Below are positions 20,932 to 45,012 of a DNA stretch of 45,423 bases, piece by piece. Within the stretch, counting starts at the first letter, position 1; every line of letters starts with the position of its first letter. Origin of the DNA: a virus; IMG/VR virus record IMGVR_UViG_3300042866_001888, positions 1-45,423 of that record. One strand, 5' to 3'. The position numbers were made by a program, and so were the translations under genes. The notes under the pieces were generated by a model. The model had not been told where the DNA came from, did no database searches, and worked only from the letters and a program-made list of their open reading frames with translations.

Positions 20932-22065
20932 ATGTCAGACAACTTTGATGTTGAGGTACCCGATATCCCCTTACCCGAGGAGGAGAAGACCATAGAGATT
21001 GAAGATACCTTTCAAGGTGCCTTCAAGTTTGCCGTTGTAGGCGCTGGTCAAGGTGGTGGTCGTCTGGCCCAAACTTTCTGGAAGATGGGGTACAAGCGTA
21101 CCGCCGTCATAAACACCTCTGAGCAGGATCTGGCCACCATTGACATGCCAGCTGACAGAAAACTGTTGATTGGCACTGGCGGCGCTGGCAAGAATCCGGC
21201 TGTGGCGGCCTCACTCATCAAGGACAAAAAGGAAGACGTCTTGGATTTCATGCGTCGTTCCTTTGGTCCAGGCTTTGACCGCATATTCTGCTGTGCATCG
21301 GCTGCTGGCGGCACTGGATCCGGCACCTTGTTGCACCTGGTGGATGTAGCCATTGAGCTGCAACAGTCATTGAAAACCAGCAGCCAAAAAGTTGGCGTGG
21401 TACTGGCTCTGCCAAAGATCTCTGAGGGCCAGAAGCTGAATGCTAATGCCTACAACGTTCTTCGTGATGTATTTGCTTTGGTCGAGAAGGGCATCGTTTC
21501 TCCTCTGATCCTTGTAGACAATGAGAAGATTTCTACCCTCTATCCAAAACTCGCTGTGGACCCATTCTGGGACACTGCCAATCGTAGTCTTCTCTCCCTA
21601 TTCCACCTCTTCAACCTCACGGCCATTCGTGAGAGTCGTTACACATCATTCGACCCATCAGACCTTAAGACGATTCTCGATTCTGGACTGATCACCTTCG
21701 GTGCAACTCCAGTGGAGAATTGGAAGGATGCCACGGGCATCTCGTTTGCCATTAGAAACTCACTGAAGAAGAACATCCTCAGTGGTGGTGTCTCAATTGA
21801 GACTGGCAACACAGCTGGTGCAATGATCATTGGGTCAGAGGATGTCTTGAATGAGGTTCCGCAGGTCAATCTTGACACCGCATTTGAGCAGTTGACCAGA
21901 ATTCTTAAGCCTGGAAACACTGTTCATCGTGGCATCTATCGTGGCAATAAACCTGGCTTGGTGGTCTACACCATCATTGGTGGTTTGGGACGACCGACTG
22001 ACAAGTTGGCTGAACTTAGAAAGTTTGGCAATGTGATTGACTCAGCTGAACCCTGGCCAAAATGA
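20932..22065 (+). CDS. Tubulin/FtsZ-family GTPase-like protein
   Basis: 377 residues. 'VVGAGQGGGRLAQTF' (GAGQGGGR at 37-44) matches the first nucleotide-binding loop of FtsZ, and 'SAAGGTGSGT' (GGTGSG at 126-131) is the tubulin/FtsZ signature G-box. 'LALPKISEGQKLNANAYNVLRDV' is the matching downstream region. Some jumbo phages use the tubulin PhuZ to centre their DNA compartment, and FtsZ-like proteins occur in other phages. This one has an acidic 30-residue N-terminal extension. It may form filaments or act as a non-polymerising GTP-binding factor. The next gene overlaps it by four bases. Confidence 0.88.
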   Translation: MSDNFDVEVPDIPLPEEEKTIEIEDTFQGAFKFAVVGAGQGGGRLAQTFWKMGYKRTAVINTSEQDLATIDMPADRKLLIGTGGAGKNPAVAASLIKDKKEDVLDFMRRSFGPGFDRIFCCASAAGGTGSGTLLHLVDVAIELQQSLKTSSQKVGVVLALPKISEGQKLNANAYNVLRDVFALVEKGIVSPLILVDNEKISTLYPKLAVDPFWDTANRSLLSLFHLFNLTAIRESRYTSFDPSDLKTILDSGLITFGATPVENWKDATGISFAIRNSLKKNILSGGVSIETGNTAGAMIIGSEDVLNEVPQVNLDTAFEQLTRILKPGNTVHRGIYRGNKPGLVVYTIIGGLGRPTDKLAELRKFGNVIDSAEPWPK

Positions 22066-22523: not shown

Positions 22524-23510
22524 ATGAGTGTGCTAGGCTTCCTCAAAAACATGACACTTCTGGCCCGTAAGGTTCCGGGCTATCATTCACTGTGGACTCA
22601 ACCCATGGCCAAGGTTGAGATGCAGGACTACGAGCTTATCTCGCTTATAGCGAGCGTTCTCTACTACAAATCGCACTCAGGTCCGATGTACCTCGTAGCT
22701 GATAGACGAGGCATTGAGTACCTGAACTCTCTTCGCCTCACTGCCTTGTATGACAAAGTGGTTGAGATGAAGGTGGACACCTCCATCAACCCAAAAGTTT
22801 TCTGGGCCGCTGGCAAGATATTCGCCCACGCTCAGATGCCATGCCCATCTGTGTCAGTGGACATGGACGCAATTGTGTGGAAGCCAGTCTACAAGACTTT
22901 GGATGCTTCAGCTGCAGTGGCACTACACCCTGAACCGTCTGATTGGACACCCTACACAAACAAGTGGCCTTCAATCATGGGTCCCTGGTCTGATATAGAC
23001 ACCAATCAGGTTAGTCCAGTCAACACAGGAATTCTGGCTTTCTTGAATGATAAGTTCAAGGAGGATTACACTCAAGCATGCTTCAGTTTCATGCGTGATT
23101 TTTCTAATTCAAAGCTTTCTAGCCAGAAAGTGGATTGGACTCACAGCCCAAGCTACATCGATGAGATGGTGTTTGCTGAGCAGATGATTCTGGCCTTGAT
23201 GGCCAAGAAAACTGGCAAGAAGATAAAGACTGTCACGTCTTACGATCGATTCTCAGACCACATGGCTGAGAACTCCATGGTAACCCACCTCTGGAATTCG
23301 AAGAGAGGGTACAGAGACCATTCAAGAGCTAGAGATGCATTCATTCATGACATGATTGACATGCTTCTTCACGATTTTCCTGACTCGAGAAAATTCATTG
23401 CCAGCTCTGGTGTGGCCACCATGGCCGTGAGAGACTCCAATACTGGAGTTGTTCGCTATTCCAAGCAGGGGGAATGGGTTCTTCCAGGTGAGGAAATCGA
23501 ACATTTGTGA
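22524..23510 (+). CDS. Putative GT-A type glycosyltransferase
   Basis: 328 residues. 'SVSVDMDAIVWKPV' has the DxD metal site (DMD) at the end of a strand, and 'VNTGILAFLN' is the conserved acceptor loop that follows in GT-A enzymes. 'YLVADRRGIEYL' in the first third fits the nucleotide-binding half. The overall pattern resembles DUF6734-type glycosyltransferases. Its acceptor might be a glycan or, given the neighbouring genes, modified DNA. The stop overlaps the next gene by four bases. Confidence 0.7.
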   Translation: MSVLGFLKNMTLLARKVPGYHSLWTQPMAKVEMQDYELISLIASVLYYKSHSGPMYLVADRRGIEYLNSLRLTALYDKVVEMKVDTSINPKVFWAAGKIFAHAQMPCPSVSVDMDAIVWKPVYKTLDASAAVALHPEPSDWTPYTNKWPSIMGPWSDIDTNQVSPVNTGILAFLNDKFKEDYTQACFSFMRDFSNSKLSSQKVDWTHSPSYIDEMVFAEQMILALMAKKTGKKIKTVTSYDRFSDHMAENSMVTHLWNSKRGYRDHSRARDAFIHDMIDMLLHDFPDSRKFIASSGVATMAVRDSNTGVVRYSKQGEWVLPGEEIEHL

Positions 23511-24451
23511 AAGGCATAATCCTTCTTGGTGGTTTTGACGACCATCAGAGGTCAAAACTAGCTGAAGCCTTCAAAGAGGCTGGCGCGACAGTGATTCGTG
23601 CTCATGGACGAAAGTCCATGTACAGCAAACCTTTCGTACACTTCACCGCAGCCCTGAGGTTAGCCTCACGCTTAAGCAAGACCAAGCTGGTGGTAGTAAC
23701 CTCCAGTTGGGTCGACATTCTCAGTAGAGTTCTGGGCGCTTCTAGCATCATGGAGATGGGTACTTCCAAGCACAAGTACCAAACCAAGATGCTTAACTCT
23801 TGGATCGTGACCAGCCGAATCTTGGATCGAGTGGCCCTGAGGTATGGTGCGTTGTATTTCTTGACACAAGGAGCCACCGAACTTTCTGACGCTGCATTCA
23901 GAGGTTTTTCAAAAAGACCTGGCGTCTTGACCTGGGATCGAAATATCGCCAGCGTTGAGGACATTATCCTCACTCTCTCCATCAATCGTTGCGTCCAGCC
24001 CGACGGTCTGGACTCTATGAACCTCAATGGCAATATCGCGGACGCTGACTACTTACTCGTCGGCGACCAGATAAATCCGAAATTTAGTCATTTCAACCAC
24101 TGGCCTTTCCATGATGATAGTGCCTCGGCTTTTTTCATCACCTCGATCTTGCAAGAATTGGGTGTGCCTGAGGAGAAAATCGCCTGGTCAAACGCAAACC
24201 ACGAGAAAGATTCGTCAGTCATCAAAAAATTCCTGGGACGCAGAAACGCCCAAGTCATTGCCCTTGGAAGGGAAGCCACCAAGGGATTGCAATCCCTTGG
24301 CATAACTCCAGAGTTCTCTATACCGCACCCTTCCTGGGCCAAGAGATTTAATAAACGCGATGAGTATCTCCAATCATTATCGGCAATTTTCCAGAAAGAC
24401 AATTCATTCCGCATACAGCTATCTCCTAAAGAGTGTACTCTATCACCCTGA
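23507..24451 (+). CDS. Two-part protein with C-terminal uracil-DNA-glycosylase-like domain
   Basis: 314 residues from GTG 23507. The first ~165 residues begin with 'GIILLGGFDDHQRSKLAEAF', which looks like a nucleotide-binding fold but lacks a proper Walker A. From about residue 180 the protein resembles the UDG superfamily: 'DYLLVGDQINPK', 'VIALGREATKGLQSLG' and 'IPHPSWAKRF'. The usual catalytic 'GEAPG' is replaced by GDQIN, so base excision is doubtful. Overlaps with a glycosyltransferase upstream and a thymidylate-synthase-family gene downstream (92 bases) suggest nucleotide or base chemistry. Confidence 0.6.
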   Translation: MKGIILLGGFDDHQRSKLAEAFKEAGATVIRAHGRKSMYSKPFVHFTAALRLASRLSKTKLVVVTSSWVDILSRVLGASSIMEMGTSKHKYQTKMLNSWIVTSRILDRVALRYGALYFLTQGATELSDAAFRGFSKRPGVLTWDRNIASVEDIILTLSINRCVQPDGLDSMNLNGNIADADYLLVGDQINPKFSHFNHWPFHDDSASAFFITSILQELGVPEEKIAWSNANHEKDSSVIKKFLGRRNAQVIALGREATKGLQSLGITPEFSIPHPSWAKRFNKRDEYLQSLSAIFQKDNSFRIQLSPKECTLSP

Positions 24452-25154
24452 GTACAAAGTTGCCACGAGAGGCAAGACGGTCTATGAGATCACTGACGTC
24501 TCATTCCGTGTGGACCATCCCATCTCAGAGTCGATCATCACCTCAGACCCTGAGAGAAACAAGGTCTTGGCTGACTACTTCTCAAAGGAGAAAGTTGTCT
24601 ATGACTCGATGACGAATGACGCCAAAGAGTTTGGCAAAGCCAGCAAGTTCTGGCTTAACCTGGCCAATCCAGATGGAACAGTCAACTCAGCCTATGGCCA
24701 CTTGATCTGGCAGGTTCCTTCACTTGGTCACCCAGAATTTGAGACAGAGGTAACGGGCAGTGCGACCTTGAGAAGCCCATGGGAGTGGGTGATTCACTCA
24801 CTCAAGAAAGACATCAACAGTCGCCAAGCTGTGATGCCATTCGCCATGCCTCACCACTACTGGGACGGCAACAAAGACCAAGTCTGCACTCTTCACGGCG
24901 TATTTCAAATTCGCAACAACCAGCTGAATCTCAGCATGGTGATGCGATCCAATGATCTTGTTCGTGGTCTGGCATATGACATGCCATGGTTTGTCCACAT
25001 TCAAGACAGAATGGTCGAGGCTCTGAAGCCTGTCTACCCATCACTGACTAAAGGCCACTACACGCACACAGCTCACAGTGCCCACATCTATGAAGATGAC
25101 GTGGAAAAGGTGCTGCGCATGCTTGGCACTTCGTCAGCAGCTGACCAAGAGTAA
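24360..25154 (+). CDS. Thymidylate-synthase-family enzyme, possibly a dCMP hydroxymethylase
   Basis: 264 residues. 'SRQAVMPF' gives the phosphate-binding Arg145, 'KDQVCTLHGVFQIR' gives catalytic Cys166, and 'MRSNDLVRGLAYDMPWF' is the pyrimidine-binding block. In E. coli thymidylate synthase this block ends in Asn177; here Asp197 takes that place, the change seen in T4-type deoxycytidylate hydroxymethylases. The enzyme therefore may make 5-hydroxymethyl-dCMP rather than dTMP. ATG 24360 is inside the previous gene; no later in-frame start would keep the conserved N-terminal helix. A palindromic terminator or parS-like site follows. Confidence 0.85.
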   Translation: MSISNHYRQFSRKTIHSAYSYLLKSVLYHPEYKVATRGKTVYEITDVSFRVDHPISESIITSDPERNKVLADYFSKEKVVYDSMTNDAKEFGKASKFWLNLANPDGTVNSAYGHLIWQVPSLGHPEFETEVTGSATLRSPWEWVIHSLKKDINSRQAVMPFAMPHHYWDGNKDQVCTLHGVFQIRNNQLNLSMVMRSNDLVRGLAYDMPWFVHIQDRMVEALKPVYPSLTKGHYTHTAHSAHIYEDDVEKVLRMLGTSSAADQE

Positions 25155-25254: not shown

Positions 25255-26226
25255 ATGCAAACGCTGCTCCGCAAGATTGGTTTCGAAGTTGAGTTTACCT
25301 GCCCAGTCAATCCTCTTCGTGAGATTGAACGTGTGCTTCGACGTATGAACTGGGAAGTCGTGCATGCTGGCCACTATCGCCACAGCACTGGATCCCACTG
25401 GGACCTTAAACTTGACAGTTCATGTGGATTTGAGATTGCCTCACCTGTCATTGAGTCCTACGAAGGTCTGGTGAAAGCTGTTAAGATTGTTGACATCATC
25501 AAGCGTGCTGGTGGCAGTGTCAACAACAAGTGTGGTCTTCATGTCCATGTTGACATGAATGGCGTCACCCCTGAGAAGTTTGAACGTGTCATGCGTTTCA
25601 TGTCCAGGTACGAAAACGCTTTCTTTCTGTTGGCTGATGAGTGCCGCCAGAACAACCAGTACTGTAAGAAACTTGATGGCCAAGCCAAGGCCATCCAAAC
25701 GGATCCTGCAAATTTCCGTAGAGCTTGGAACTACAAGCACTATTGGCTCAATGGCACTCACTTGGCAGGCCAAGGCACATTGGAGTTTCGCCTTATGGCA
25801 TCTCACCTGGAATCTGAGTACCTCGTGGGTTGGGTGCTCTTCCTCCTCCATGCAGTTGACTACCTTCTCAATGGCAAGCACGTCAGCTGGGGCCAAGCCA
25901 AGTGCGCTAGTGACAGGGATTTGCTTCAGACCATGCTCGGCCAAGCTGGTTTCTATGGGCCGTTCAATCAGAGGGACAAGCCCACTATTGTGGCTGCACG
26001 TAAGTGGGCCCTGTCAACCTACACAGCCAAAATTGGTCAGTCTGACCGTAGAATCAAGGCCCCAAGTATCCAGCAACTTGAAGCCCTAGCTGAGCAACCT
26101 GTGGCCCAGGCCATTTCACTGGATGAGGCTTTTGGCCCTGCTCCAGCTGCGGATGCAGGGTCACTCTTTCCTCAACCCACTCCTCGTCCTCGAGTCCGTC
26201 GTCCACGGGTCCACACCCTTCGCTAA
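25255..26226 (+). CDS. Amidoligase family enzyme (COOH-NH2 ligase), amidoligase 1
   Basis: 323 residues. IGFEVEF (8-14) holds the first metal-binding Glu pair, 'DLKLDSSCGFEIASPVI' (50-66) the second, CGLHVHVD is at 93-100, 'RQNNQYC' at 131-137, and 'LNGTHLAGQGTLEFRL' (165-180) carries the conserved Asn, Glu and Arg. This is the full signature of the glutamine-synthetase-like amidoligase_2 family, which joins an amine to a carboxyl group using ATP. The last 70 residues are a Pro/Arg-rich tail. Its promoter and those of two more amidoligases and an amidotransferase are of the same kind. Confidence 0.9.
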   Translation: MQTLLRKIGFEVEFTCPVNPLREIERVLRRMNWEVVHAGHYRHSTGSHWDLKLDSSCGFEIASPVIESYEGLVKAVKIVDIIKRAGGSVNNKCGLHVHVDMNGVTPEKFERVMRFMSRYENAFFLLADECRQNNQYCKKLDGQAKAIQTDPANFRRAWNYKHYWLNGTHLAGQGTLEFRLMASHLESEYLVGWVLFLLHAVDYLLNGKHVSWGQAKCASDRDLLQTMLGQAGFYGPFNQRDKPTIVAARKWALSTYTAKIGQSDRRIKAPSIQQLEALAEQPVAQAISLDEAFGPAPAADAGSLFPQPTPRPRVRRPRVHTLR

Positions 26227-29019: not shown

Positions 29020-31887
29020 ATGTCTACGCTGGCTATTGACCGTGTATTCTCAAACGCAACCACAAGCCCATATGATGAGATCCCTTGGAGTAAACGAACT
29101 GTTGTAATCAACGATGATAGTGGCAAGCCACTCTTCGAGCAGAAGGATGTTGAGGCCCCAGCTTCTTGGTCTGATCTCGCGGTCAAGATCGTGGCTAGCA
29201 AGTACTTCTATGGTACGCATGGAACGTCTGAACGTGAGAATTCTGTTCGTAAGCTCATCCATCGTGTAGCTAGAACGATTGCTGATTGGGGTATTGATTC
29301 TGGCTATTTCAATGCGGAAGACGGTGAGGTTTTCTATCAGGAACTTTCTGCTCTGTGCCTCAACCAGTACGGCGTTTTCAACTCGCCAGTGTGGTTCAAC
29401 GTTGGCCTGTGGCACCAATACAAGGCCGGCATCAACGGAACTTCAGGAGGTTGGGCCTACAACTACGAGACAGGCCAAGTTGAAAAGCAGACTCTGCCAT
29501 ATCTTCGTCCTCAAGGTTCGGCCTGCTTCATACAAAGTGTGGATGACAACATGGACTCGCTGATGGCTCTGGCTGCGTCTGAGGCGATGCTCTTTAAGTT
29601 TGGCTCTGGTACTGGCACTGACCTGAGCACTATTCGTTCCTCTAAGGAGCGTCTCTCTGGCGGTGGTCGTCCATCTGGTCCGATGTCGTTCCTGAAAGTG
29701 TATGACCAAGTGGCCAACACCATCAAGTCCGGTGGCAAGACACGTCGTGCTGCGAAGATGAACACACTTCGTGATTGGCACCCTGACATCGAGGAGTTTA
29801 TTGTGGCCAAGATGAAGGAGGAGAAGAAAGCCCACGCTCTTATCGATGCTGGCTATGATGGCTCCTTCAACGGTGAGGCTTACGGCACGGTGGCTTACCA
29901 GAACGAGAACCTCTCAGTTCGTGTCAGTGACGAGTTCATGAACGCGGCCATCAACGGTGAGAAGTGGCCGACACGAGCGGTGACAACTGGTAGTGTGGTT
30001 GAGGAGAAAGACGCCTCCAAACTTCTCGACCAGATCGCTGAAGGAACTTGGGTTTGTGGTGACCCTGGTTTGCAGTACGACGGAGCCATTCAACGTTGGC
30101 ACACTTGCAAGGGAACAGAGCCAATCCACTCCACCAACCCATGCTCAGAGTATATCTTCCTCAACAACACAGCCTGCAACCTGGCCTCGTTGAACCTGAT
30201 GAAGTTCCGCACTGAGGACGGTCAGTTTGACATTACTAAGTTCAAGGCTGCGGCTCGTATCTTCATTATTGCCCAAGAGATTCTGGTTGATTCGGCCTCC
30301 TATCCAACCAAGCTTATCGCTGAGAACTCTCACATCTTCCGTACACTGGGTCTTGGCTACGCAAATCTTGGCTCACTCATCATGAGCTATGGTCTGCCTT
30401 ACGATTCTAAAGAAGGCAACACAATGGCTGGTTCGTTGGCGGCCCTTATGACTGGTGTGGCTTACACCACGTCAGCTGAGATCGCCTCAGTCAAGGGACC
30501 ATTCTCTGGGTACAACGATGCCCGTTGCTCTCACATTCAGAAACCTCTGGCTCCCTCCAACAAGGAGTCAATGCTTGAAGTGATTCGTGCTCACAGCGCA
30601 GCCGCTGATAAGCTCGACTCGTCACTGAAACTTCCGGCTAATCTTAGCGATGTCATTGCAGAGGCCAAGTCTTCATGGAAGTCTGCCTATCAGGAGGGTC
30701 TGAATCACGGCTATCGTAATGCTCAAGTTACTGTGGTTGCTCCCACAGGCACCATTGCCTTCATGATGGACTGTGACACCACAGGCATTGAACCGGACAT
30801 CGCCCTGGTGAAGTACAAGACACTTGCCGGTGGCGGTCACTTGAAGATTGTCAACAACACAGTGCCGACTGCTTTGAAGCAGTTGGGTTACTCCAGTGCT
30901 GACATTGCCCGTATCACTGATTACATCTTCAAGCACGATACTATTGAAGATGTTGAAGGTGAGACAAGCGGCTTGCTGGCTTACCACCTTCCTGTGTTTG
31001 ACTGTGCTTTCAAGGCAGCCAAAGGCCAACGCTCCATTCCTTGGATGGCCCACCTCAATGTGATGGCCGCTGTTCAACCGTTCATCTCTGGAGCCATCTC
31101 CAAGACAGTCAACATGCCAGGCAATGCCACGGCAAATGACATTCGCAACGCGTACATTGAGGCCTGGAAACTTGGTCTGAAGTGTGTGGCTATCTATCGC
31201 GATGGCTCCAAGCGTTCTCAGCCTCTTAACACATCGTCAAACGCAGACACGGCTGATACCTCTGCTTTGAAAGCGCTGGAGGCCAAAGTGGCTCAGTTGG
31301 AGTCAGCCCTGCACCAGGTCACAACCAAGGGCGGACCATATCGTGAGCGTCTGCAAGACACTCGTGAGGCCCTTACCCACAAGTTCAACATCAGTGGCCA
31401 AGAGGGTTATGCCACTGTGGGTCTCTACGATGACGGACGCCCCGGTGAACTCTTCATCCAAATGGCCAAGGAGGGTTCTACTATGGGTGGCCTGATGGAC
31501 GCCATTGGAACCTTGACTTCAATCTCCTTGCAGTATGGAGTGCCTCTTCAGACGTTGGTTGACAAGTTCTCACACCAACGTTTTGAACCTCATGGTTACA
31601 CTAGTAATCCGAAGATCAGAACTGCAAGTTCAATCATCGACTACATCTTCCGTTGGATGGAAAGCGAATTTCCGGACAATGGAAAACATGAGAAAACCTT
31701 TGATGTCAGCTCGGGTTCTGCCCAGAAACCCGCGCCTGTTACAATGGTTGAAGGCGCAACCAAATCCGCCAGCACTTCCACATACAAGAGCGGCCAGTGC
31801 TGCACGACGTGCGGCAGCTCCAATGTTCAAATCAGTGGCACATGTGCAACATGCACTAACTGTGGCACCAGCCTGGGTTGCTCATAG
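29020..31887 (+). CDS. nrdJ: Class II (B12-dependent) ribonucleotide reductase
   Basis: 955 residues. 'NSPVWFNVGLW' and 'ACFIQSVDDNMDSL' (first redox Cys), 'STNPCSEYIFLNNTACNLASLNL' with catalytic Asn-x-Cys-x-Glu, and 'PTGTIAFMMDCDTTGIEPD' mark the adenosylcobalamin-dependent NrdJ class. The C-terminus holds a TSCPD-type domain ('FIQMAKEGSTMGGLMDAIG') and a Cys-rich zinc ribbon with redox cysteines. It reduces ribonucleotides to deoxyribonucleotides for phage DNA synthesis without needing a separate radical-generating subunit or oxygen. The host must supply B12. Complete by length. Confidence 0.95.
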   Translation: MSTLAIDRVFSNATTSPYDEIPWSKRTVVINDDSGKPLFEQKDVEAPASWSDLAVKIVASKYFYGTHGTSERENSVRKLIHRVARTIADWGIDSGYFNAEDGEVFYQELSALCLNQYGVFNSPVWFNVGLWHQYKAGINGTSGGWAYNYETGQVEKQTLPYLRPQGSACFIQSVDDNMDSLMALAASEAMLFKFGSGTGTDLSTIRSSKERLSGGGRPSGPMSFLKVYDQVANTIKSGGKTRRAAKMNTLRDWHPDIEEFIVAKMKEEKKAHALIDAGYDGSFNGEAYGTVAYQNENLSVRVSDEFMNAAINGEKWPTRAVTTGSVVEEKDASKLLDQIAEGTWVCGDPGLQYDGAIQRWHTCKGTEPIHSTNPCSEYIFLNNTACNLASLNLMKFRTEDGQFDITKFKAAARIFIIAQEILVDSASYPTKLIAENSHIFRTLGLGYANLGSLIMSYGLPYDSKEGNTMAGSLAALMTGVAYTTSAEIASVKGPFSGYNDARCSHIQKPLAPSNKESMLEVIRAHSAAADKLDSSLKLPANLSDVIAEAKSSWKSAYQEGLNHGYRNAQVTVVAPTGTIAFMMDCDTTGIEPDIALVKYKTLAGGGHLKIVNNTVPTALKQLGYSSADIARITDYIFKHDTIEDVEGETSGLLAYHLPVFDCAFKAAKGQRSIPWMAHLNVMAAVQPFISGAISKTVNMPGNATANDIRNAYIEAWKLGLKCVAIYRDGSKRSQPLNTSSNADTADTSALKALEAKVAQLESALHQVTTKGGPYRERLQDTREALTHKFNISGQEGYATVGLYDDGRPGELFIQMAKEGSTMGGLMDAIGTLTSISLQYGVPLQTLVDKFSHQRFEPHGYTSNPKIRTASSIIDYIFRWMESEFPDNGKHEKTFDVSSGSAQKPAPVTMVEGATKSASTSTYKSGQCCTTCGSSNVQISGTCATCTNCGTSLGCS

Positions 31888-35717: not shown

Positions 35718-36011
35718 GCACGAGGTAAACACCTTCTCAGGTCTGTGATGCCCATCACGGATGATTTCCATGGTGGGTTTGTTGACACGCTTAAAAGGCA
35801 AGCTGATAGTAAGAGGATCCGTATCCTTGATAAATGACACCATCAGCTTACTGTTTTTCACCCTCTCTTGAGATTTTGTGACTGATGGCTTGAATGGAAC
35901 GTGATCAAGAACAAAGTTTACTTTTCTGATGCAATTGGCGCACAGCGACGAGTTCAGTATGTCAGCTCGGTATTTTTCAATCTCCCTCTGACAATTCAGG
36001 CATTTTTTCAT
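35646..36011 (-). CDS. Zinc-binding hypothetical protein coupled to the glutamine amidotransferase
   Basis: 121 residues on the minus strand. 'KKCLNCQREIEKYRADILNSSLCANC' gives two CxxC pairs at the N-terminus, a small zinc knuckle. The start overlaps the stop of the amidotransferase gene by four bases, so it is translated from that transcript. Its 3' end overlaps the baseplate gene by 72 bases. Function unknown, perhaps a partner of the amidotransferase. Confidence 0.75.
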   Translation of the reverse strand: MKKCLNCQREIEKYRADILNSSLCANCIRKVNFVLDHVPFKPSVTKSQERVKNSKLMVSFIKDTDPLTISLPFKRVNKPTMEIIRDGHHRPEKVFTSCLINRVVDNNVARTDNLRDASSEF

Positions 36012-37120
36012 ACGGCCTGAGATGAGAATTCGTCTTGAGTGGGATGCTCATACACATTCACGGCTCCTTCATCGACCAGTCCATTGATGTCGAGACGATA
36101 AATGTGGCCCTCCTTGTAGTCCTCATATTCGACTGCGCACTCGATGTTATCATCCAGCTTGTTGAGTGCGTTGGAGATGATTTCACGAGTGGAAGCCACC
36201 AAGGTCAGGATCTTGATCCCTTGGTCGTTGGATTCCTCAATGAGCTTGCCTTTGGACGTGAATGACTGACACTTCCAACGCCAAGTAATCTTGGCTGACA
36301 CAGCCTCTTTGCCGTATCGCATAGTATAGACTTCAGGGCCACGACTGGTTCGGCTAATCCAGACGAGAGCCATGCACCCCTCGACCAGACGAAAATCACG
36401 TGCGTTGATAAAGGGACCCAACACCTGTGAGTCGGTGGTAATATCAGCAGCGTATTTCGTACAGTCTGCTGACTTAAGCAATTGCCTCATGGGCAAATTC
36501 AGAAAAGCCTGCTCATCAAGCCCAGTCTTAGATCCAAAAGTGGACCAGAGATAATCAGCCTGTTGAAAGTTGCCAAGTGCCCAAAAATCTCTGACTGCAA
36601 TAGACAGTGCCTTGCAATTGGCATCGATGTCATTGACAAAATCGATAAGTCCGTCAGTGATGCTGTCAACCATGGCATCAGTGCCAGCATCCTTCAAGGA
36701 TTCCTTGACTGAGTTCTTGACGATGCCTTTGAAGTGCTCAACCAGAGTCATCTTCAAAGCCTTCCAGTTTTCAACTCGACCATTGTGAGCGAAGTAGAGT
36801 CCCCAGTATCCGTAGGGATGTGCATTTCTGCTGTCAATAGGCATTCCAGGAGAGGCACGTCGAGTATGGCCAATGCCAGTGGGCGACCTGCGTGCCTGAC
36901 TAAGGATCTTCTGTACGTCTTCATCCTTGACAAACGATGATGGATCCAAAACGTCTTTGTAGGCACCAATGGCATTGTATTCCTGCTTCTCCTTCACATC
37001 CTTAAAGGACCCATAGAAAGCAATTCCAGTGGAATCTTTACCACGAGAACCACTCTCAATGAGAAGGTAGCTGAGAAAACCACGAGGCAACTGACCAGTC
37101 CAACCAATAATAGCGCACAT
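36008..37120 (-). CDS. Class II glutamine amidotransferase domain protein
   Basis: 370 residues on the minus strand. The N-terminus MCAIIGWTG exposes Cys2, the nucleophile of class II (Ntn-type) glutaminases, after Met removal. 'SGSRGKDSTGIAFYG', 'TGIGHTRRASPG', 'NAHPYGYWGLYFAHNGRVEN' are the conserved substrate-binding loops. It hydrolyses glutamine to give ammonia, usually passed to a second active site. No synthase domain follows in the chain, but an amidoligase gene lies next to it on the same strand. Amidoligases paired with class II amidotransferases have been predicted to amidate or cross-link peptides. Confidence 0.9.
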   Translation of the reverse strand: MCAIIGWTGQLPRGFLSYLLIESGSRGKDSTGIAFYGSFKDVKEKQEYNAIGAYKDVLDPSSFVKDEDVQKILSQARRSPTGIGHTRRASPGMPIDSRNAHPYGYWGLYFAHNGRVENWKALKMTLVEHFKGIVKNSVKESLKDAGTDAMVDSITDGLIDFVNDIDANCKALSIAVRDFWALGNFQQADYLWSTFGSKTGLDEQAFLNLPMRQLLKSADCTKYAADITTDSQVLGPFINARDFRLVEGCMALVWISRTSRGPEVYTMRYGKEAVSAKITWRWKCQSFTSKGKLIEESNDQGIKILTLVASTREIISNALNKLDDNIECAVEYEDYKEGHIYRLDINGLVDEGAVNVYEHPTQDEFSSQAV

Positions 37121-37157: not shown

Positions 37158-38177
37158 TTAAGAACGTTCACGAGTCAGAGCAGCCTCTCTGAGAATGTTC
37201 AGATCCTCGTGGGCGATCTCATCAATGACACGACATAGTCTGTAACGATTTCCTGACTGTGTGATGATTCCACGGCTGCTGGTCAAAGCCAGCAGCTTCT
37301 TGGCCATTGGGTAGTTTATGTCAAGACTGGTGGAGATTGAGAAAAGTCCAAGTGGACCAGACTGAAGCAACACCACGAGCCGTGAGATCAGTTCATCCGT
37401 GGGTTGGCCATTCATGATTTCATGACGCCACTTGATCCATTCAACCAGGTTGTGGCCACAACGTGCAAGTTGCCATTGCTCAACAACTTCCAGGAGTCCA
37501 TCTAAGGTTCGTGGACTGTGCGAGGCCAGAATAACCAATCCTGGGTCACGAGCCATGTCAGTTAGAGCCGTCACAAATGTAGACCAACCATAGATGTTAG
37601 CAAATCGTTTAGACGGTGAACCCTGACGAAACTCAACTGAACGGTGGAGCGTATTTGTGCAACGCATCATTGCGAAGTTGATCACTCGATAGGCACGTGA
37701 CCACTTGGCTCGTTCACGATTGGGAGCTGACTCCTCAAGATTAAACTCAGCAATCAGCTGCTCCTTAGACAGATCGTCAGGAAATGGTGGGCAATACCGA
37801 TTGTTTACCCTGGATTCGCCCAACAACGTGTTGATGGCTGGCTGAAAGTGGGTGTACAGCTTAGCCAGGTTAAAAGCATCGTCATGGCTGTAGTCATGGG
37901 CTTGAACGTGGACATGAAATCCACCTCGAGTTGTCAAACCAATCTTGATTTGGTCAAATTCTTCAGCGAAGCGTTGAACAAATGGCATCAGTTGGTTGTA
38001 CTCCACTGCTGGCTCGAGCACAAATTCACGACCATTTCTGAGTGAGCCGTCATGCTTGGCCACCCAATTGACAGGCAGTGGATTGGGCTCACGAAACTGA
38101 GCACTGCCACTGTCATACTCCAACTCTAGACCAACCAGGCGTGACGATTCGTAAACTGGAAGAGGCGCTTCTTGCAT
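37158..38177 (-). CDS. Amidoligase family enzyme, amidoligase 2
   Basis: 339 residues on the minus strand. GLELEY (16-21), KHDGS (41-45), GREFVLEP (49-56), GGFHVHVQ (85-92), 'VNNRYC' (124-129) and 'RSVEFRQG' repeat in order the motifs of amidoligase 1, including the metal- and ATP-binding Glu, His and Arg residues. The CGLH of amidoligase 1 is GGFH here. The C-terminal ~90 residues add a helical region. It lies directly upstream of the amidotransferase gene and has its own promoter, so the two could supply ammonia and ligase function together. Confidence 0.85.
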   Translation of the reverse strand: MQEAPLPVYESSRLVGLELEYDSGSAQFREPNPLPVNWVAKHDGSLRNGREFVLEPAVEYNQLMPFVQRFAEEFDQIKIGLTTRGGFHVHVQAHDYSHDDAFNLAKLYTHFQPAINTLLGESRVNNRYCPPFPDDLSKEQLIAEFNLEESAPNRERAKWSRAYRVINFAMMRCTNTLHRSVEFRQGSPSKRFANIYGWSTFVTALTDMARDPGLVILASHSPRTLDGLLEVVEQWQLARCGHNLVEWIKWRHEIMNGQPTDELISRLVVLLQSGPLGLFSISTSLDINYPMAKKLLALTSSRGIITQSGNRYRLCRVIDEIAHEDLNILREAALTRERS

Positions 38178-38213: not shown

Positions 38214-41200
38214 CTATTCTTCGTCCATGCGCTTGAACACATCGGCCCAGTCATTGTCGCCATGAGACAGCTTGATCATGTCCAAGTAGTTCTTGCCAAC
38301 TTCAGAGTCACCATCGAAGGGCAACACTCGTGTCCAAGACAAATCAACGTCGTTGCCCAACCATGTCTCCAGGATGTCTGGGATGTTCGTAAAGACGCTC
38401 ATCACGATCTCATGAACCATTGGCAGCTCCTCACGGATGCAATCGACCAGGAGTGAATCGTGAACTGTTGAGATAAGGATGGATTTCAGCCCAGCATCTC
38501 GCATCAAAGTTTCAATGGCGCAGATGCAGCAAAGCATCATATCAGAGGCTGTTGCTTGGATCAGGTGATTACAACCAGCTCTCAGAGCTTTGCTCTTAAG
38601 TCCATTGTCGTCAGAGCCAGCTTCCTCAAAGATTCTAACTCGACCAAGCATTGATACAGCCACACCATTGCTCTCGATAAACCCCTTGTAGTAGGACAGG
38701 TACTCTCTCAGAGCAGGATATGAATCAAAGAATGCCTCAAGGAATGCTTCACATTCCTCAATGGTCTGATAGATACCGTCTTGGGCCAGGGTGCCCTGAA
38801 GTCCTTGAGCACCACCACCGTATCCAGTCAAGAAGTTGATCGTCTTTGAGATCTTACGCTTCAACTCGCACTCTTTGGCCTCTTTGTCTTTTCCAGCCTT
38901 TTGCAATGCACTGACATGATCTTTGATACAGTGATCATAGGGCATCTTGAAGATTCTCGACATGGTCAGTGAGTGCAAGTCAATGCCACGAACATAGGCG
39001 TCGACCATGGCCTCATCACCACAAGCTGCGGCTATGAGTCTCAACTCAATCTGAGACAAGTCACCCTGATAGAGGCAGCCGTTGTCACCAAATCTAGACG
39101 TGTAGATTCGCTTGACCTGACCACGAGCTGGGAGCTGTTGAAGATTGGGATCACGTGAGCTTAGACGTCCACTTCTCGTTCCAGTTATGAGGAACTGGGT
39201 GTGCACCATGCCGTCTCTGGCCAAATGTTGATCCTTGGTTCTGGCCTTCTTGTCAATGCCCTTGGTTGTGATGTTACGAATCGTTCTGATGTAGGACGCA
39301 TACTGCTTGAAGATTGACCTGTACTCAAGCAAGGGCCTTACCTTTGGATTTTCAGCCGACAATCCATTCAGTGAAAACTTATCGATCGCTATGACTTTCA
39401 GGAATTCCTTCCACTTGTCTTGAAAGTCTTCATCATTGTGCGATATCTTGCGAATGGCTTTCTCAGCCTTTTCAATGGGTCCAACAAGGTCCTCAACACG
39501 ATCAACAAAGAATTTCCCCTCTTTGATTCGCGATTGTCCAGCAGATGTAAGTGCCTTGATTGGCAACCTCATCTTCTCGTACAGAATGGTTCTCAGATGG
39601 TCCTTTGACTCGAGATCTAGAAACCAGCCAGGTGTCTGCGACTCCATGTACTCACACCACTCCAACACCTCTGGCGTGATCTCACGCAGCTTCTTGCGAG
39701 TCTCAAAGATGAGCTGAGGGAACATCTCCTCTTGGAACGAGAGCTCCTTGAGATCCACCTTAAGACCACGACCCATCATCTTGATGAGTGTGCCAGATGC
39801 AGGTGATACGATCTTGTCGTAGACCTGTTGACGGCTTATGGTTTGATACCACCTGAATTTGCCTCTATGGGTTGGGTGGGCCAGAGGAATCTTGTAAGTC
39901 TTGCACTCCGCATACTTCTCACGAAGTTTCTCGTGCGTCTTGTAAGTGACTTCAACGTCGCCCATCACATAGGGCTTGAGATGCGTTTCCTTGTACTCGT
40001 CTGGACACCTAGCATAGTGTCCTCCCTGTTCAGGATGAAGCAGATCACGTTCGAGCTCGATCAGTATTGAAAAGTCTTCATCATAGCCACCCAACTCAGG
40101 AACGTGCTGATAGGCCATCATGTCCAAGCCAAGTGAACCCTTGGCTTGACGAAGCACGAATGCCTCGTGCCAAGTATCATATCGACAGGCATCACCCAAT
40201 CTGTCAAGATTCGAACCCTCAAAGTTGGCTGCAGCAAATAGGGCATCAAATGTGAGATTGTGTCCAACCAGTGTGGATGATTCCAGGGCCTTATTGAGGA
40301 ATGGAGTGATTCTCCCAATGTGTGGTTTCAGTGGGCTTTCAGGGTAGTCCCAAGGAAATCCAATTGAGCGTAGTTGGTCACCATCCTTCCATCTCAACAT
40401 GACATAGACTATGGCTGCACCCTCAGCGAAAGCTTTTAGTCCTGTTGTTTCAGTGTCAAAAGCCACAAGGGTCTTTGGGTGATCGATCAGCCACTTCAAA
40501 GACTTGATGATCTCATCTGGGTTCTCTGAGATTACATAGTGGTCAAGGATGTACTTCCTAAGTGGCACTCCATCGGCAGCCATTCTCATGGCTTCAACGA
40601 TGGACTTCAACCAGGCTTCTTTCAGCTTTCTGATTTGTGTTGCATCAATGATTCCTGGTGTCTGGACCGGGAACATTGGAACACGAAAATCAGGGTCGTG
40701 TTGGCCAAAAATTGGATGGCCAGGCTTCTTGCCATCGACAGCTTTGGAGTATTTTGTCTCCATCAACCAGTCATCTGGCCACCCACGATAGGTAAGCAAC
40801 TTACCGCCCCAGTCCTGGGCATTTGACTTGTAACTGAAGAAACCCAATACCACAGATCCCACAGGCATCATGATATTGGGTGGGTACATCATCACATCTT
40901 GTACAGCATAGAGACCACACCAGTTAATCTTGGTCTTTGGGTTGATTACCTTCTTTACGCCATTGCGTGGACGATTGGCACAACGCATCATTGGAACCCA
41001 ACGAATCTTGTCGAATGGGAACTTGGCATGCTTGGCCATGTTACTCCAAATGTCTCTCAGCCTTGCAGCAATGCCACCAACACCAGGTTTGCCTTGATCG
41101 TCTTCATTACCTGAGGTAAACTCATAAAATACTGAGATTGCAGGCTCCTCAGAACCGTATGGCTTCAAGAAAGGGTTCTTGCAGTCGACGAACAGATCAC

Positions 41201-41513
41201 ACTTTTGACAGATGGGCGAGTCAGGTCCAGGCTTGAGTGCCCGGGTGTCTTCGATGAGAGTGTCCCCATTCTTGAACCAAAGTGTCAAGGGGCTGGCCAA
41301 ATCGATGATCCAACGCCGATCACCGTTCTCATCCAAGGAAATAGCTTCACGATGGTGCAACTCTAGCGTGTCACGAAAATGCTTGGTGATGTGCTTTAGA
41401 GACACCTCCTCGCCCGATGGTGAGGTGATGACCAACTTAGATTTTCTCTGTCGGGTCTTTTTTGCTGGCGTTGGCTCGACCTCGCCAACAAGATCGACAT
41501 CGTTAGTATTCAT
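38214..41513 (-). CDS. Family A DNA polymerase with N-terminal UDG-like iron-sulfur domain
   Basis: 1099 residues from ATG 41513; a GTG at 41543 would add ten. Numbering from that GTG, residues ~105-300 resemble a family 4 uracil-DNA glycosylase: C112, C115, C188 and C209 match the four [4Fe-4S] ligands, with 'GNEDDQGKPGVGGIAARL' and 'MMRCANRPRNG'. A DnaQ-like 3'-5' exonuclease follows ('LVAFDTETTGL', 'LVGHNLTFDALF', 'YVMGDVEVTY'). The polymerase part has motif A 'QGDLSQIELRLIA', motif B 'RKISKTINFLTGYGG' and motif C 'VHDSLLV', where the usual HDE is HDS. It replicates the phage genome. The glycosylase-like domain lacks the standard catalytic 'GEAPG', so it may read template bases rather than excise them. 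Confidence 0.92.
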   Translation of the reverse strand: MNTNDVDLVGEVEPTPAKKTRQRKSKLVITSPSGEEVSLKHITKHFRDTLELHHREAISLDENGDRRWIIDLASPLTLWFKNGDTLIEDTRALKPGPDSPICQKCDLFVDCKNPFLKPYGSEEPAISVFYEFTSGNEDDQGKPGVGGIAARLRDIWSNMAKHAKFPFDKIRWVPMMRCANRPRNGVKKVINPKTKINWCGLYAVQDVMMYPPNIMMPVGSVVLGFFSYKSNAQDWGGKLLTYRGWPDDWLMETKYSKAVDGKKPGHPIFGQHDPDFRVPMFPVQTPGIIDATQIRKLKEAWLKSIVEAMRMAADGVPLRKYILDHYVISENPDEIIKSLKWLIDHPKTLVAFDTETTGLKAFAEGAAIVYVMLRWKDGDQLRSIGFPWDYPESPLKPHIGRITPFLNKALESSTLVGHNLTFDALFAAANFEGSNLDRLGDACRYDTWHEAFVLRQAKGSLGLDMMAYQHVPELGGYDEDFSILIELERDLLHPEQGGHYARCPDEYKETHLKPYVMGDVEVTYKTHEKLREKYAECKTYKIPLAHPTHRGKFRWYQTISRQQVYDKIVSPASGTLIKMMGRGLKVDLKELSFQEEMFPQLIFETRKKLREITPEVLEWCEYMESQTPGWFLDLESKDHLRTILYEKMRLPIKALTSAGQSRIKEGKFFVDRVEDLVGPIEKAEKAIRKISHNDEDFQDKWKEFLKVIAIDKFSLNGLSAENPKVRPLLEYRSIFKQYASYIRTIRNITTKGIDKKARTKDQHLARDGMVHTQFLITGTRSGRLSSRDPNLQQLPARGQVKRIYTSRFGDNGCLYQGDLSQIELRLIAAACGDEAMVDAYVRGIDLHSLTMSRIFKMPYDHCIKDHVSALQKAGKDKEAKECELKRKISKTINFLTGYGGGAQGLQGTLAQDGIYQTIEECEAFLEAFFDSYPALREYLSYYKGFIESNGVAVSMLGRVRIFEEAGSDDNGLKSKALRAGCNHLIQATASDMMLCCICAIETLMRDAGLKSILISTVHDSLLVDCIREELPMVHEIVMSVFTNIPDILETWLGNDVDLSWTRVLPFDGDSEVGKNYLDMIKLSHGDNDWADVFKRMDEE

Positions 41514-41521
41514 TGTTCTGT

Positions 41522-42541
41522 ATGGTAGAAATGGAATTGACACCGCATCCTAGGCCTCTCCCTTGCTTCGGCTCTGAGTTCAAGGAGAATGATGCCATGT
41601 GCTCATCTTGCAGCTATAGAACTGACTGCATCACTGCCATGGGCTGTAGAAGAAACAAAGTTTCTCTGGCCAATGTCACATTCAATCTGGTTCCTGAAGT
41701 TTTGCAGACAAGCACAGACATTGCCAACCCAGAAACTAACGTACACACTTTGTTTTACACTTGCCACGATGCTATCTTTGGCAAGCCTTGCAAGTATCGA
41801 ATTCCGGCTGGAGGCGTAGAAAAGATTGTGGCTGCTGCTGAGCAAGCCCAGTGTGGCTTGAAGCTTTTCATCACAGCGGTGATGATGGCCCATCAGGAAT
41901 CAGCACCTTTTGACCCATTTTATCCAAACATGTTGTTTGGCCAGTCAGCCATCAAGAAAGTAAACATGTTTCGTACAGCCTGCAGAGAGAAGTTTGGCCA
42001 CTTTGACATTGGTGCGTTCAACAAGCTGAGAGGCAAAGCTGATGAGGACAACGATTTGCAGGAGAAGATGCTTAGGAGCGAGATACTCTTTGGTCAGTTG
42101 ATCATAGGATACATGCTCAAGGCTGATGAGCCACCCTACAGTCAAGTTTACAGAATTCGTGAGCTTGGGTTTGACCCAGTGTGGTTGGCCATTGAGCCCA
42201 CATACAAAGATGTACTTGAGCAGCACATCAAGTCAGAGTCACAGACCTCAGACGTTATTGCCACACTGCGCCACAACGTGTTTCAGATCAAGAAGTCATT
42301 AAAGGCTAACAGGCCCAGATTGAGAGAGACTTTTAAGATTCGTGAGAACATCATGAAGCAAGCCGTCTCTGTGGTCATGTCACACCACAACTTGTCAGCG
42401 AATGACTTCGAGATCATCAATGAACCTGTGGTTTCAGCCAGCAAGTTTTGGCTAGTTCTTGGAAAAGCCTTGAACCACTACTACTGCTGGTTGGCAGTGA
42501 ATGGTGACAAGTACGCGATGAGAAAGATCTCAAGGAGATGA
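41522..42541 (+). CDS. Cysteine-cluster hypothetical protein in the replication block
   Basis: 339 residues from ATG 41522; ATG 41531 is an alternative. The N-terminal 50 residues hold 'CFGSEFKENDAMCSSCSYRTDCITAMGC', a cysteine cluster suited to zinc or an iron-sulfur centre. The rest is helical with Lys/Arg-rich segments. Its start is only eight bases from the divergent DNA polymerase start. It ends three bases before the helicase gene, so a role in replication (primase-, loader- or recombination-like) is likely but no family is recognised. Confidence 0.72.
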   Translation: MVEMELTPHPRPLPCFGSEFKENDAMCSSCSYRTDCITAMGCRRNKVSLANVTFNLVPEVLQTSTDIANPETNVHTLFYTCHDAIFGKPCKYRIPAGGVEKIVAAAEQAQCGLKLFITAVMMAHQESAPFDPFYPNMLFGQSAIKKVNMFRTACREKFGHFDIGAFNKLRGKADEDNDLQEKMLRSEILFGQLIIGYMLKADEPPYSQVYRIRELGFDPVWLAIEPTYKDVLEQHIKSESQTSDVIATLRHNVFQIKKSLKANRPRLRETFKIRENIMKQAVSVVMSHHNLSANDFEIINEPVVSASKFWLVLGKALNHYYCWLAVNGDKYAMRKISRR

Positions 42542-42544
42542 TCA

Positions 42545-43957
42545 ATGGCTCAATTTACTGACGACTTTCAAGATTTGATTTTGGCCTGTGCTGTGGAGCA
42601 CCCAGACCAATTTGTCTGCTATGGCCCTATCATCAACTCCAAACATTATGTTGGGGTTCAAGCCACAATAGCTGCCAGAGTTATCTCTGACTACTACGAA
42701 CAACATGGAACTTTCCCATCTTGGACCATATTTGAGCAAGGTGTGGTTAGACGTGCTGGTAAAGTTGGCATAGCCGATGACGAACAAAACAAGGCCAAAG
42801 AGTATGTCGCTAAGATTCGTGAGCTGGTAAAGACTGATGTTCGTGGGCCAGCAGATGTCAAGCATGTCTCTGGACAAGTGGTTGAGTTTTGCCGCTATCA
42901 GGGCATGCTTTCAGCCATCAAGAAAAACATCGAGCGTCTCAAAGAGGGCAAGTCTCTGGACTTGGCCATTTGTGAGAATGCTATGCAAATTGGTCAGAAT
43001 CTGAACAGCATGGGTGTGCTGATGTCAGGAAATGATCCTGACTTGGCATTGGACGTTGTTGACAGAGTGACCACTCGTGGTTATGGCGTTCGCACTGGGT
43101 ACAGCTTTCTGGACAAGATTTGGAAGAATGGTTGGGCTCCAGGTTGGTTGATAGTTCCACTGGCCCCTCCAAAACGTTTCAAAACCACATTCTGCATCAA
43201 TCTGGCTCTCAACATTGCTGGACCAGCCATTGGTGAAGATGTGCTCTACTACACTTGCGAAATCTCAGACGAGCTGGCTGCAGTCAGAGCGATGTGTAAT
43301 GTGGCTCGTGTGTCCATGGATGTGATGTATGAGTCGCCTGAGAAGTTCAAGATTCAGGTCAAAGACCAGATGACAGCCCTGATGCATGGTGAGATCCTGG
43401 TAAAAGGCTTTGCCTCCAGAACGGCGACCATTGCGGATCTCAAAGCTCATGCCAAGATGGCCATTCAGCAAGGTTTGAGGCCAAAGGCCATCATTATTGA
43501 CTACGCAGACACAGTCAAACCATCGTCATCCCACAAGGAGAAGAAAGACCACCTCCTTCAAGCTGATGTCTACACTGAAGCTAGAGCGATGGGAGCTGAA
43601 CTGGGATGCTGTGTGATCATGCCTGATCGTTGTACTAGGGAAACTGTATCGATGCCAGTCCCAAGTATGCAATCATTCCAGGGCGCCTTCGAAAAAGCTG
43701 GTATCGTTGACATCTCAATTGGCCTTTGCGCGACTGAAGCAGAGTTGAAGAATAACATCATTCGACTTTTCGTCTTCCTCAATCGTCATGGCGCGGCTCT
43801 TCAACACTTCCAAGGTGCAGTTGATGCCTCAACCTATCGTATGGAAATTCTCAAGGAACTTGAGTATGATCCAGATGACACTGGTGAGACCAAGGGTAAG
43901 GGCAAAGGCAAAGACAAGAAGGGCGTCTCTCACTTGCCAGACGACATCGAAGAATGA
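42545..43957 (+). CDS. DnaB-like replicative helicase (RecA-fold ATPase)
   Basis: 470 residues. An N-terminal helical domain (1-130) resembles the DnaB N-domain. The motor has 'VRTGYSFLDKIWKNGWAPGWLIVPLAPPKRFKTTF', in which 207-215 is the Walker A region, 'VLYYTCEIS' and Walker B 'AIIIDYADTV'. The Walker A sequence APPKRFKTT lacks the canonical Gly before Lys (Phe instead), so ATP binding may be unusual. The C-terminus is a Lys/Gly-rich tail ('ETKGKGKGKDKK'). It unwinds DNA ahead of the polymerase encoded nearby. Confidence 0.82.
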   Translation: MAQFTDDFQDLILACAVEHPDQFVCYGPIINSKHYVGVQATIAARVISDYYEQHGTFPSWTIFEQGVVRRAGKVGIADDEQNKAKEYVAKIRELVKTDVRGPADVKHVSGQVVEFCRYQGMLSAIKKNIERLKEGKSLDLAICENAMQIGQNLNSMGVLMSGNDPDLALDVVDRVTTRGYGVRTGYSFLDKIWKNGWAPGWLIVPLAPPKRFKTTFCINLALNIAGPAIGEDVLYYTCEISDELAAVRAMCNVARVSMDVMYESPEKFKIQVKDQMTALMHGEILVKGFASRTATIADLKAHAKMAIQQGLRPKAIIIDYADTVKPSSSHKEKKDHLLQADVYTEARAMGAELGCCVIMPDRCTRETVSMPVPSMQSFQGAFEKAGIVDISIGLCATEAELKNNIIRLFVFLNRHGAALQHFQGAVDASTYRMEILKELEYDPDDTGETKGKGKGKDKKGVSHLPDDIEE

Positions 43958-43992: not shown

Positions 43993-45012
43993 ATGGGCAA
44001 AGTCAACTCGGTCCTTACATTCGGTTTGGAGCTGGAGTGTGTGAAGCTTTCCAAAACGGCTCTGTCGACTATTGAGTCACTTAGTTTTGAACGTCATCTT
44101 GATCACTCCATCAAGGGCGACAATGGCGAGACTCTTCCACGAACATGGCCAGGAGCGGGTCATGAGATCGTTACAAAGCCAATGGCCATGAATGTGTCAA
44201 TGAATGGTGATGGCACAAAATGTGAGGTTAGTCCACGAGAGAAAGTCACTGAACTCGTCAAGAAGTTGGCCAGTTGTTCTGATCATGTCAACAGCTCATG
44301 TGGCATCCATCTCCACCTGGGAAAACCCAAAATGAAGAATGGCGAGCTTGGCACCACGTCATCTTGGTCTCCAGATGAGGTGAGAACCATGCTGATCATT
44401 GGTCAGATTCTGGAACCCAGACTCATGGACTTAGTTCATGCCTCTAGACGCAACAATGATACGTGCCAGTCTATCTCCAAGAGATATCTCAAGAGTGATT
44501 TTGGGAAATTCTATCCAGTCGGCAAGGTGGACCCAAACAAGTACAGCAACACCAAGAGATATTGCTGGTTGAACCTGATTGAGACTGCGAGAAAGGGTAA
44601 TCGATCAGAAAGAGGTTACGGCAGTTCACCAGCGACTGGCACCATTGAAGTACGTTTGCTGGGAGAGACACATTGCCCCAACTACATCGATGCATGGACT
44701 CAGTTGTGGCTGAACATTGGAGCCCTTGTGGCTTGTGCATCATCCACTCTAGCCATATCCCAAATCTGCTACTCAGACATCCTCGAGCCCCTGTTCTTCG
44801 CAGTCCAGTGTGCTAAGACAGCCGATGAGAAGCAGAGATCCCTCTCGTCATCACACCAAGTCCATGTGGGTGGGCGCACACACCCCCGTCAGATGACTTC
44901 ACCCAGGCCCACAGAGCATACCACAAGCCATGTTATTAGCCGAGTGTTGAACTCATCAACCTCAGTTAGTGCAGCTTCTTCAATTATTGCAGCTGACGAA
45001 CCACCATTTTAA
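43993..45012 (+). CDS. Amidoligase family enzyme, amidoligase 3
   Basis: 339 residues. FGLELEC (10-16), 'GAGHEIVTKP' (55-63), CGIHLHLG (103-110), 'SRRNNDTCQSI' , 'NTKRYCWLNLIE' and 'TGTIEVRLLGE' repeat the amidoligase motifs in the same order as in the other two enzymes. The last 60 residues are Ser/Thr-rich and probably unstructured. The overall likeness to amidoligases 1 and 2 is limited to the motifs, so the three are old relatives, probably with different substrates. The next gene starts on the last base of its stop codon. Confidence 0.86.
   Translation: MGKVNSVLTFGLELECVKLSKTALSTIESLSFERHLDHSIKGDNGETLPRTWPGAGHEIVTKPMAMNVSMNGDGTKCEVSPREKVTELVKKLASCSDHVNSSCGIHLHLGKPKMKNGELGTTSSWSPDEVRTMLIIGQILEPRLMDLVHASRRNNDTCQSISKRYLKSDFGKFYPVGKVDPNKYSNTKRYCWLNLIETARKGNRSERGYGSSPATGTIEVRLLGETHCPNYIDAWTQLWLNIGALVACASSTLAISQICYSDILEPLFFAVQCAKTADEKQRSLSSSHQVHVGGRTHPRQMTSPRPTEHTTSHVISRVLNSSTSVSAASSIIAADEPPF

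Follow-up and report, generated by a model that had tools for sequence, protein, structure and literature searches.

Family A DNA polymerases with an N-terminal uracil-DNA glycosylase (UDG) domain are known and are common in phages. In 2020, gp205 of the jumbo Pseudomonas phage PaBG and all 11 phages of the Lupandier group were published with an N-terminal UDG followed by a 3′–5′ exonuclease and a family A polymerase; the UDG domain of gp205 was modelled on 1ui0 and discussed in terms of repair (PMC7412058). A literature search for this architecture returned that paper alone. The same order of domains is present in SPO1-type polymerases (SPO1 gp31, LysYB1 and SPO1L1), and Herelleviridae polymerases match the Pfam UDG family with E-values of 5e-26 (LysYB1) and 8.5e-22. 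The polymerase of Thermus phage phiLo (PDB 9QHS) is also of family A and has an N-terminal region that matches the UDG domain; it was solved with a modified template, and our literature search found no paper on it. Family 4 UDGs (TthUDG 1ui0, TM0511) and UdgX share the fold and the [4Fe-4S] cysteine pattern, but are stand-alone proteins with canonical motifs. Their kinship with a phage polymerase has long been recognised, as shown by the name 'Phage SPO1 DNA polymerase-related protein' that some UdgX chains bear in the PDB.

An iterated UDG-domain profile matched 116 of 151 polymerases in a sample made up of viral contigs fetched by exonuclease and polymerase motifs together with a few phage records; because its members were ranked by their resemblance to fused queries, the proportion is not a natural frequency. 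The four cysteines and every one of the scored active-site positions (Glu, Asn, Phe-type and His; four in all) were present in 49/133 aligned fusion domains, as scored from an automatic alignment in which single assignments may be wrong; in some fusions the cysteines, too, are gone. A fusion with a near-complete motif is that of Brevundimonas phage MaInes, which has GESPG and HPAF. On a tree built without the UDG region, parsimony required the active site to switch 16 times between the complete and the degenerate state, indicating that the UDG domain is often retained once its chemistry is gone. That complete-looking fusions are common raises the question of how such a replicase spares its own template from damage. 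The iterated profile also matched the polymerases of T5-like (L007, 1.6e-18) and Enterococcus (L006, 5.3e-25) phages, which suggests eroded UDG remnants in these proteins; linker similarity could account for part of the match. In two other contigs a separate UDG-like ORF was present (L046, 1887–2432; L062, 1672–2505) and the polymerase ORF had no match to the UDG profile.

The window polymerase and its N-terminal fold

The window, meaning the whole stretch of DNA analysed here, is an IMG/VR virus record of 45,423 bp, which had no megablast match among phages. Its polymerase ORF starts with GTG; an alternative ATG at 41513 gives the 38214–41513 gene of an earlier, sequence-only reading of this DNA. 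Pfam DNA_pol_A matched the protein at 7e-58 and the exonuclease family exo1 at 1.7e-4, just under the curated cut-off. The catalytic acids of both domains do not vary among 53 aligned related polymerases, and the enzyme should therefore proofread, as the sequence-only reading had supposed of the fusion partner. It is probably the replicase of a large tailed phage. The order of its domains is that of SPO1 gp31 and PaBG gp205, and similarity to the SPO1-type polymerases extends over most of its length (LysYB1 aligned over window residues 106–1109, 3e-44). Coordinates are given in Table 1.

Table 1. Positions in the window of the polymerase domains and motifs, and of the kinase-UDG and hydroxymethylase-like genes
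Feature	Position	Strand	Remarks
Family A DNA polymerase ORF, 1109 aa	38214..41543	minus	N-extension, UDG-like domain, 3′–5′ exonuclease, polymerase
N-terminal extension, residues 31–105	41229..41453	minus	poorly conserved, mean identity 25% in clade
Family-4-UDG-like domain, residues ~106–330	40554..41228	minus	profile matches 1l9g/1vk2/1ui0; Foldseek 1ui0
First cluster cysteine pair, C112-x2-C115	41199..41210	minus	25/25 in clade, invariant in 42 N-domains
Degenerate motif A, YEFTSGNED, residues 140–148	41100..41126	minus	family 4 is GEAPGxxED; acid 141 and D148 kept
Third cluster cysteine, C188	40980..40982	minus	25/25 in clade, invariant in 42 N-domains
Fourth cluster cysteine, C209	40917..40919	minus	25/25 in clade, invariant in 42 N-domains
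Clade-specific conserved loop RGWPDDW ... GHP, residues 245–284	40692..40811	minus	RGWPD and GH invariant, 25/25
3′–5′ exonuclease, residues ~345–545	39909..40511	minus	acids D363, E365, D456, D529 invariant in 53 polymerases
Family A polymerase core, residues ~718–1090	38274..39392	minus	D828, D1029 invariant in 53 polymerases
Nucleotide-kinase-like half of P0002, residues 1–160	23507..23986	plus	Walker A eroded; family profile vs YorR 2axp 5.8e-13
Second UDG-like domain, P0002 residues ~165–300	23999..24406	plus	hhalign and PDB profile
Thymidylate-synthase-superfamily gene, pyrimidine-hydroxymethylase-like	24360..25154	plus	PF00303 4e-13; alignment

The window protein alone gave no match to Pfam UDG, and a PDB search with the single domain sequence gave best E-values of 0.73–0.88, both matches being to one UDG, TM0511. 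This weak evidence was resolved by profiles. A PDB search with a profile of the window domain and six relatives (40–49% identity) matched 1l9g (6.2e-6), 1vk2 (6.9e-6) and 1ui0 (7e-6), and only family 4 UDGs and UdgX reached significance. One relative, L016, lies above the Pfam UDG cut-off at 4.7e-7, and Pfam UDG was matched by 47 of the 53 aligned fused polymerases. When the N-domains of the window clade were compared with the fusion alignment using hhalign, the E-value was 1.5e-11.

Structure prediction led to the same assignment. The AlphaFold2 model of the whole polymerase had a pLDDT of 90, and Foldseek matches to it were dominated by the polymerase core. Residues 31–345 were modelled separately (pLDDT 87.6), and Foldseek ranks 1–36 for this model were all family 4 UDGs or UdgX, the best being Thermus UDG 1ui0 (E 2.8e-11, TM-score on target 0.76); the phiLo polymerase 9QHS came next, at 1.1e-5. 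The UDG-like domain that the sequence-only reading had noticed on the polymerase is thus confirmed, and the predicted structure that it had called for contains that fold. The domain is best explained as a descendant of a family 4 uracil-DNA glycosylase that has kept the fold.

Active site and conserved loop in the window clade

A direct search of viral contigs with the window protein returned a single near-identical contig. A clade-specific scan yielded a window clade of 25 polymerases, including a few near-duplicates, on contigs of up to 238 kb; these proteins are about 37–51% identical to that of the window. A scan of genome contigs for hosts of the clade found none. Several of the clade polymerases (in L273 and L275–L280) are 1398–1970 aa long, compared with about 1100 aa, and insertions, for example inteins, are possible; a Pfam intein match was obtained in one of the 53 aligned polymerases.

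The earlier claims that the domain keeps the four cysteines of family 4 UDGs and has lost the catalytic GEAPG both held. C112, C115, C188 and C209 are present in every clade member, as well as in the 42 N-domains of the cysteine alignment, most of which are only 14–22% identical to that of the window, and these residues predict that a [4Fe-4S] cluster is present. Motif A, GE[AG]PG, is replaced by YEFTS in the window, with an acidic residue, E141, in register. This catalytic Glu position is acidic in 25/25 clade members (D in 19, E in 6); D148 is also kept in 25/25, and E/D at 147–148 is mostly kept. Three further positions were named by reference to TthUDG and UdgX, and we take them to be the uracil-recognising Asn, the stacking Phe and the motif B catalytic His. 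The Asn is found in 0/25 clade members, having become Pro, Ala or Thr (P184 in the window), the Phe in 0/25, having become mostly Gly or Ala (G154), and the His in 2/25, with mostly Ala or Ser elsewhere (T295).

These replacements bear on the proposal of the sequence-only reading that the domain senses uracil ahead of the polymerase and stalls it. A UDG fold joined to a proofreading polymerase, with an acid at 141 and E/D mostly kept at 147–148, would suit such a sensor, but the residues that handle uracil are lost in the clade, so that the canonical pocket is unlikely to serve in sensing uracil. Uracil read-ahead of the archaeal type is a mechanism of family B polymerases. Uracil recognition by replicative polymerases is described as limited to archaea in the title of Wardle 2008 (cited in PMC7544198). 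We therefore regard template-uracil sensing by the window domain as improbable; judging from the residues retained, sensing or excision would fit the complete fusions better than the window clade. The domain might instead be an active glycosylase of altered specificity that releases some base during replication. The acid at the catalytic Glu position throughout the clade is consistent with this, and the 49 other fusions that keep the four scored positions may be active UDGs, but replacement of the catalytic His in 23/25 members and loss of the GxAPG motif make such an activity more improbable still.

The clade has in addition a conserved loop of its own, in which RGWPD (253–257), G275 and H276 are invariant in 25/25 members, as is Q294 beyond it. 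Among the first seven members, the loop segment (246–285) averaged 57% identity, compared with 50% in the exonuclease and 44% in the domain as a whole. Conservation of the loop above the domain average, together with the invariance of RGWPD and GH, indicates that the domain is constrained and not drifting. The change in this clade looks like remodelling rather than drift. By contrast, SPO1-type polymerases have a motif A of the DNP/ENP type and no RGWPDD loop, and SPO1L1 has no cysteines. UDG-polymerase fusions were already known; the remodelled version in the window clade is new to us.

The same conservation bears on the idea that the domain is a relic without function that persists only as a folded N-terminus. 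The active site has been lost in many lineages and the cysteines have also gone in some fusions, as would be expected of a relic, but in the window clade the four cysteines and the RGWPD loop are invariant among 25 proteins that have diverged to about 37–51% identity with the window's. Of the explanations considered we find this one the least probable.

A candidate DNA-gripping role

The most likely role, to which we assign a probability of about 0.5, is that the N-terminal domain now acts as a fixed DNA-gripping module, with a part in processivity that is suggested by analogy. Such a module would keep template or duplex DNA close to the exonuclease-polymerase core, and its grip would raise processivity or steer DNA between the exonuclease and polymerase sites. 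The RGWPDD/GHP loop would take over the edge of the former base pocket, and the iron-sulfur cluster would stabilise the gripping domain. Vaccinia D4 is a UDG that acts in processivity independently of its catalysis; the analogy is with a UDG of another family, one that has no cluster. The vaccinia polymerase is described as using the processivity factor A20/D4 (PMC5682278). Counting against a gripping role, the acids retained at positions 141 and 147/148 would also be consistent with an altered function in catalysis or base reading. Having lost the chemistry but not the cysteines, the window clade provides a natural control, and comparing it with the complete class could tell a structural role apart from one in repair.

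Base modification and the second UDG-like domain

A second UDG-like domain, claimed earlier for 23507–24451, was recovered in the C-terminal half of this product (P0002, residues ~165–300), which matched the UDG domains of the polymerases (hhalign probability 97.5, E 7e-12) and, in the PDB, the family 4 UDG 1vk2 (2.4e-6). The protein is a member of a nucleotide-kinase-UDG fusion family, its N-terminal half being a P-loop kinase with YorR as the best PDB match. By pattern, 48/55 loci of this family have a Walker A, which is eroded in the window and in the copies nearly identical to it, and a hydroxymethylase-like gene lies within 1.5 kb of the kinase-UDG gene in 51/55 loci, a set that includes near-identical contigs. 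In the window the two genes overlap (23507–25154). The hydroxymethylase-like product keeps the catalytic Cys and has Asp at the thymidylate synthase (TS) Asn position in the alignment; by comparison with T4 gp42, we assume that this Asp points to a putative dCMP substrate. To our knowledge the kinase-UDG fusion has not been described. Its family, beside hydroxymethylase-like genes, represents a second phage use of the UDG fold near nucleotide modification.

The presence of these two genes in the window is one of several observations that would agree with a polymerase domain that reads modified bases, in which the pocket has been enlarged and rebuilt with the RGWPDD loop and accepts or checks a modified base in the template. 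The replacements in the clade are by small residues (Phe by Gly/Ala, Asn by Pro/Ala/Thr, His by Ala/Ser) and accompany a new conserved loop. The fusion is carried by SPO1, SP8, SP82G and CampHawk, which we take to be 5hmU or SPO1-like phages, and the PDB entry for the related polymerase 9QHS reads 'with modified template'. TS homologs, dCMP deaminase or kinases are encoded near the polymerase in several fusion phages, and in three cultured ones the fusion adjoins folE or queD/queE-type genes. Divergent TS homologs were found with 25/45 degenerate motifs and 6/31 complete ones (Fisher p 0.002), counting any PF00303 match and setting apart by eye the canonical TS in L006; motif states were again scored from an automatic alignment, and single assignments may be wrong.

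However, the association weakened to p 0.04 when the homolog was simulated on the polymerase tree, and within the clade a PF00303 (TS/hydroxymethylase) homolog was present in only 3/24 other records, and in 2/14 of those of at least 100 kb. The link to base modification is therefore suggestive across the wider family but poor in the window clade, and it was rejected as the best explanation. Reading of modified bases by the domain is accordingly possible but unlikely. It is slightly more doubtful that the glycosylase fold of the clade has been rebuilt as a non-canonical reader of template bases through which the replicase would check or tolerate the phage's own DNA chemistry.

Other genes of the window were also noted. 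A DnaB-like helicase is encoded near the polymerase (42545–43957). Between them, 41513–42541 is a divergent ORF with N-terminal CxxC-type cysteines and no significant family match, whose listed start overlaps that of the polymerase. There are three Amidoligase_2-family genes and one glutamine amidotransferase (GATase_6) gene (25255–26226, 37158–38177, 43993–45012 and 36008–37120); the amidotransferase gene and one of the amidoligase genes follow immediately downstream of the polymerase, in the same orientation. The window also encodes a Tubulin/FtsZ-family (TubZ/PhuZ-like) protein at 20932–22065 (PF00091, 1.7e-10) and a class II (B12-type) ribonucleotide reductase at 29020–31887.
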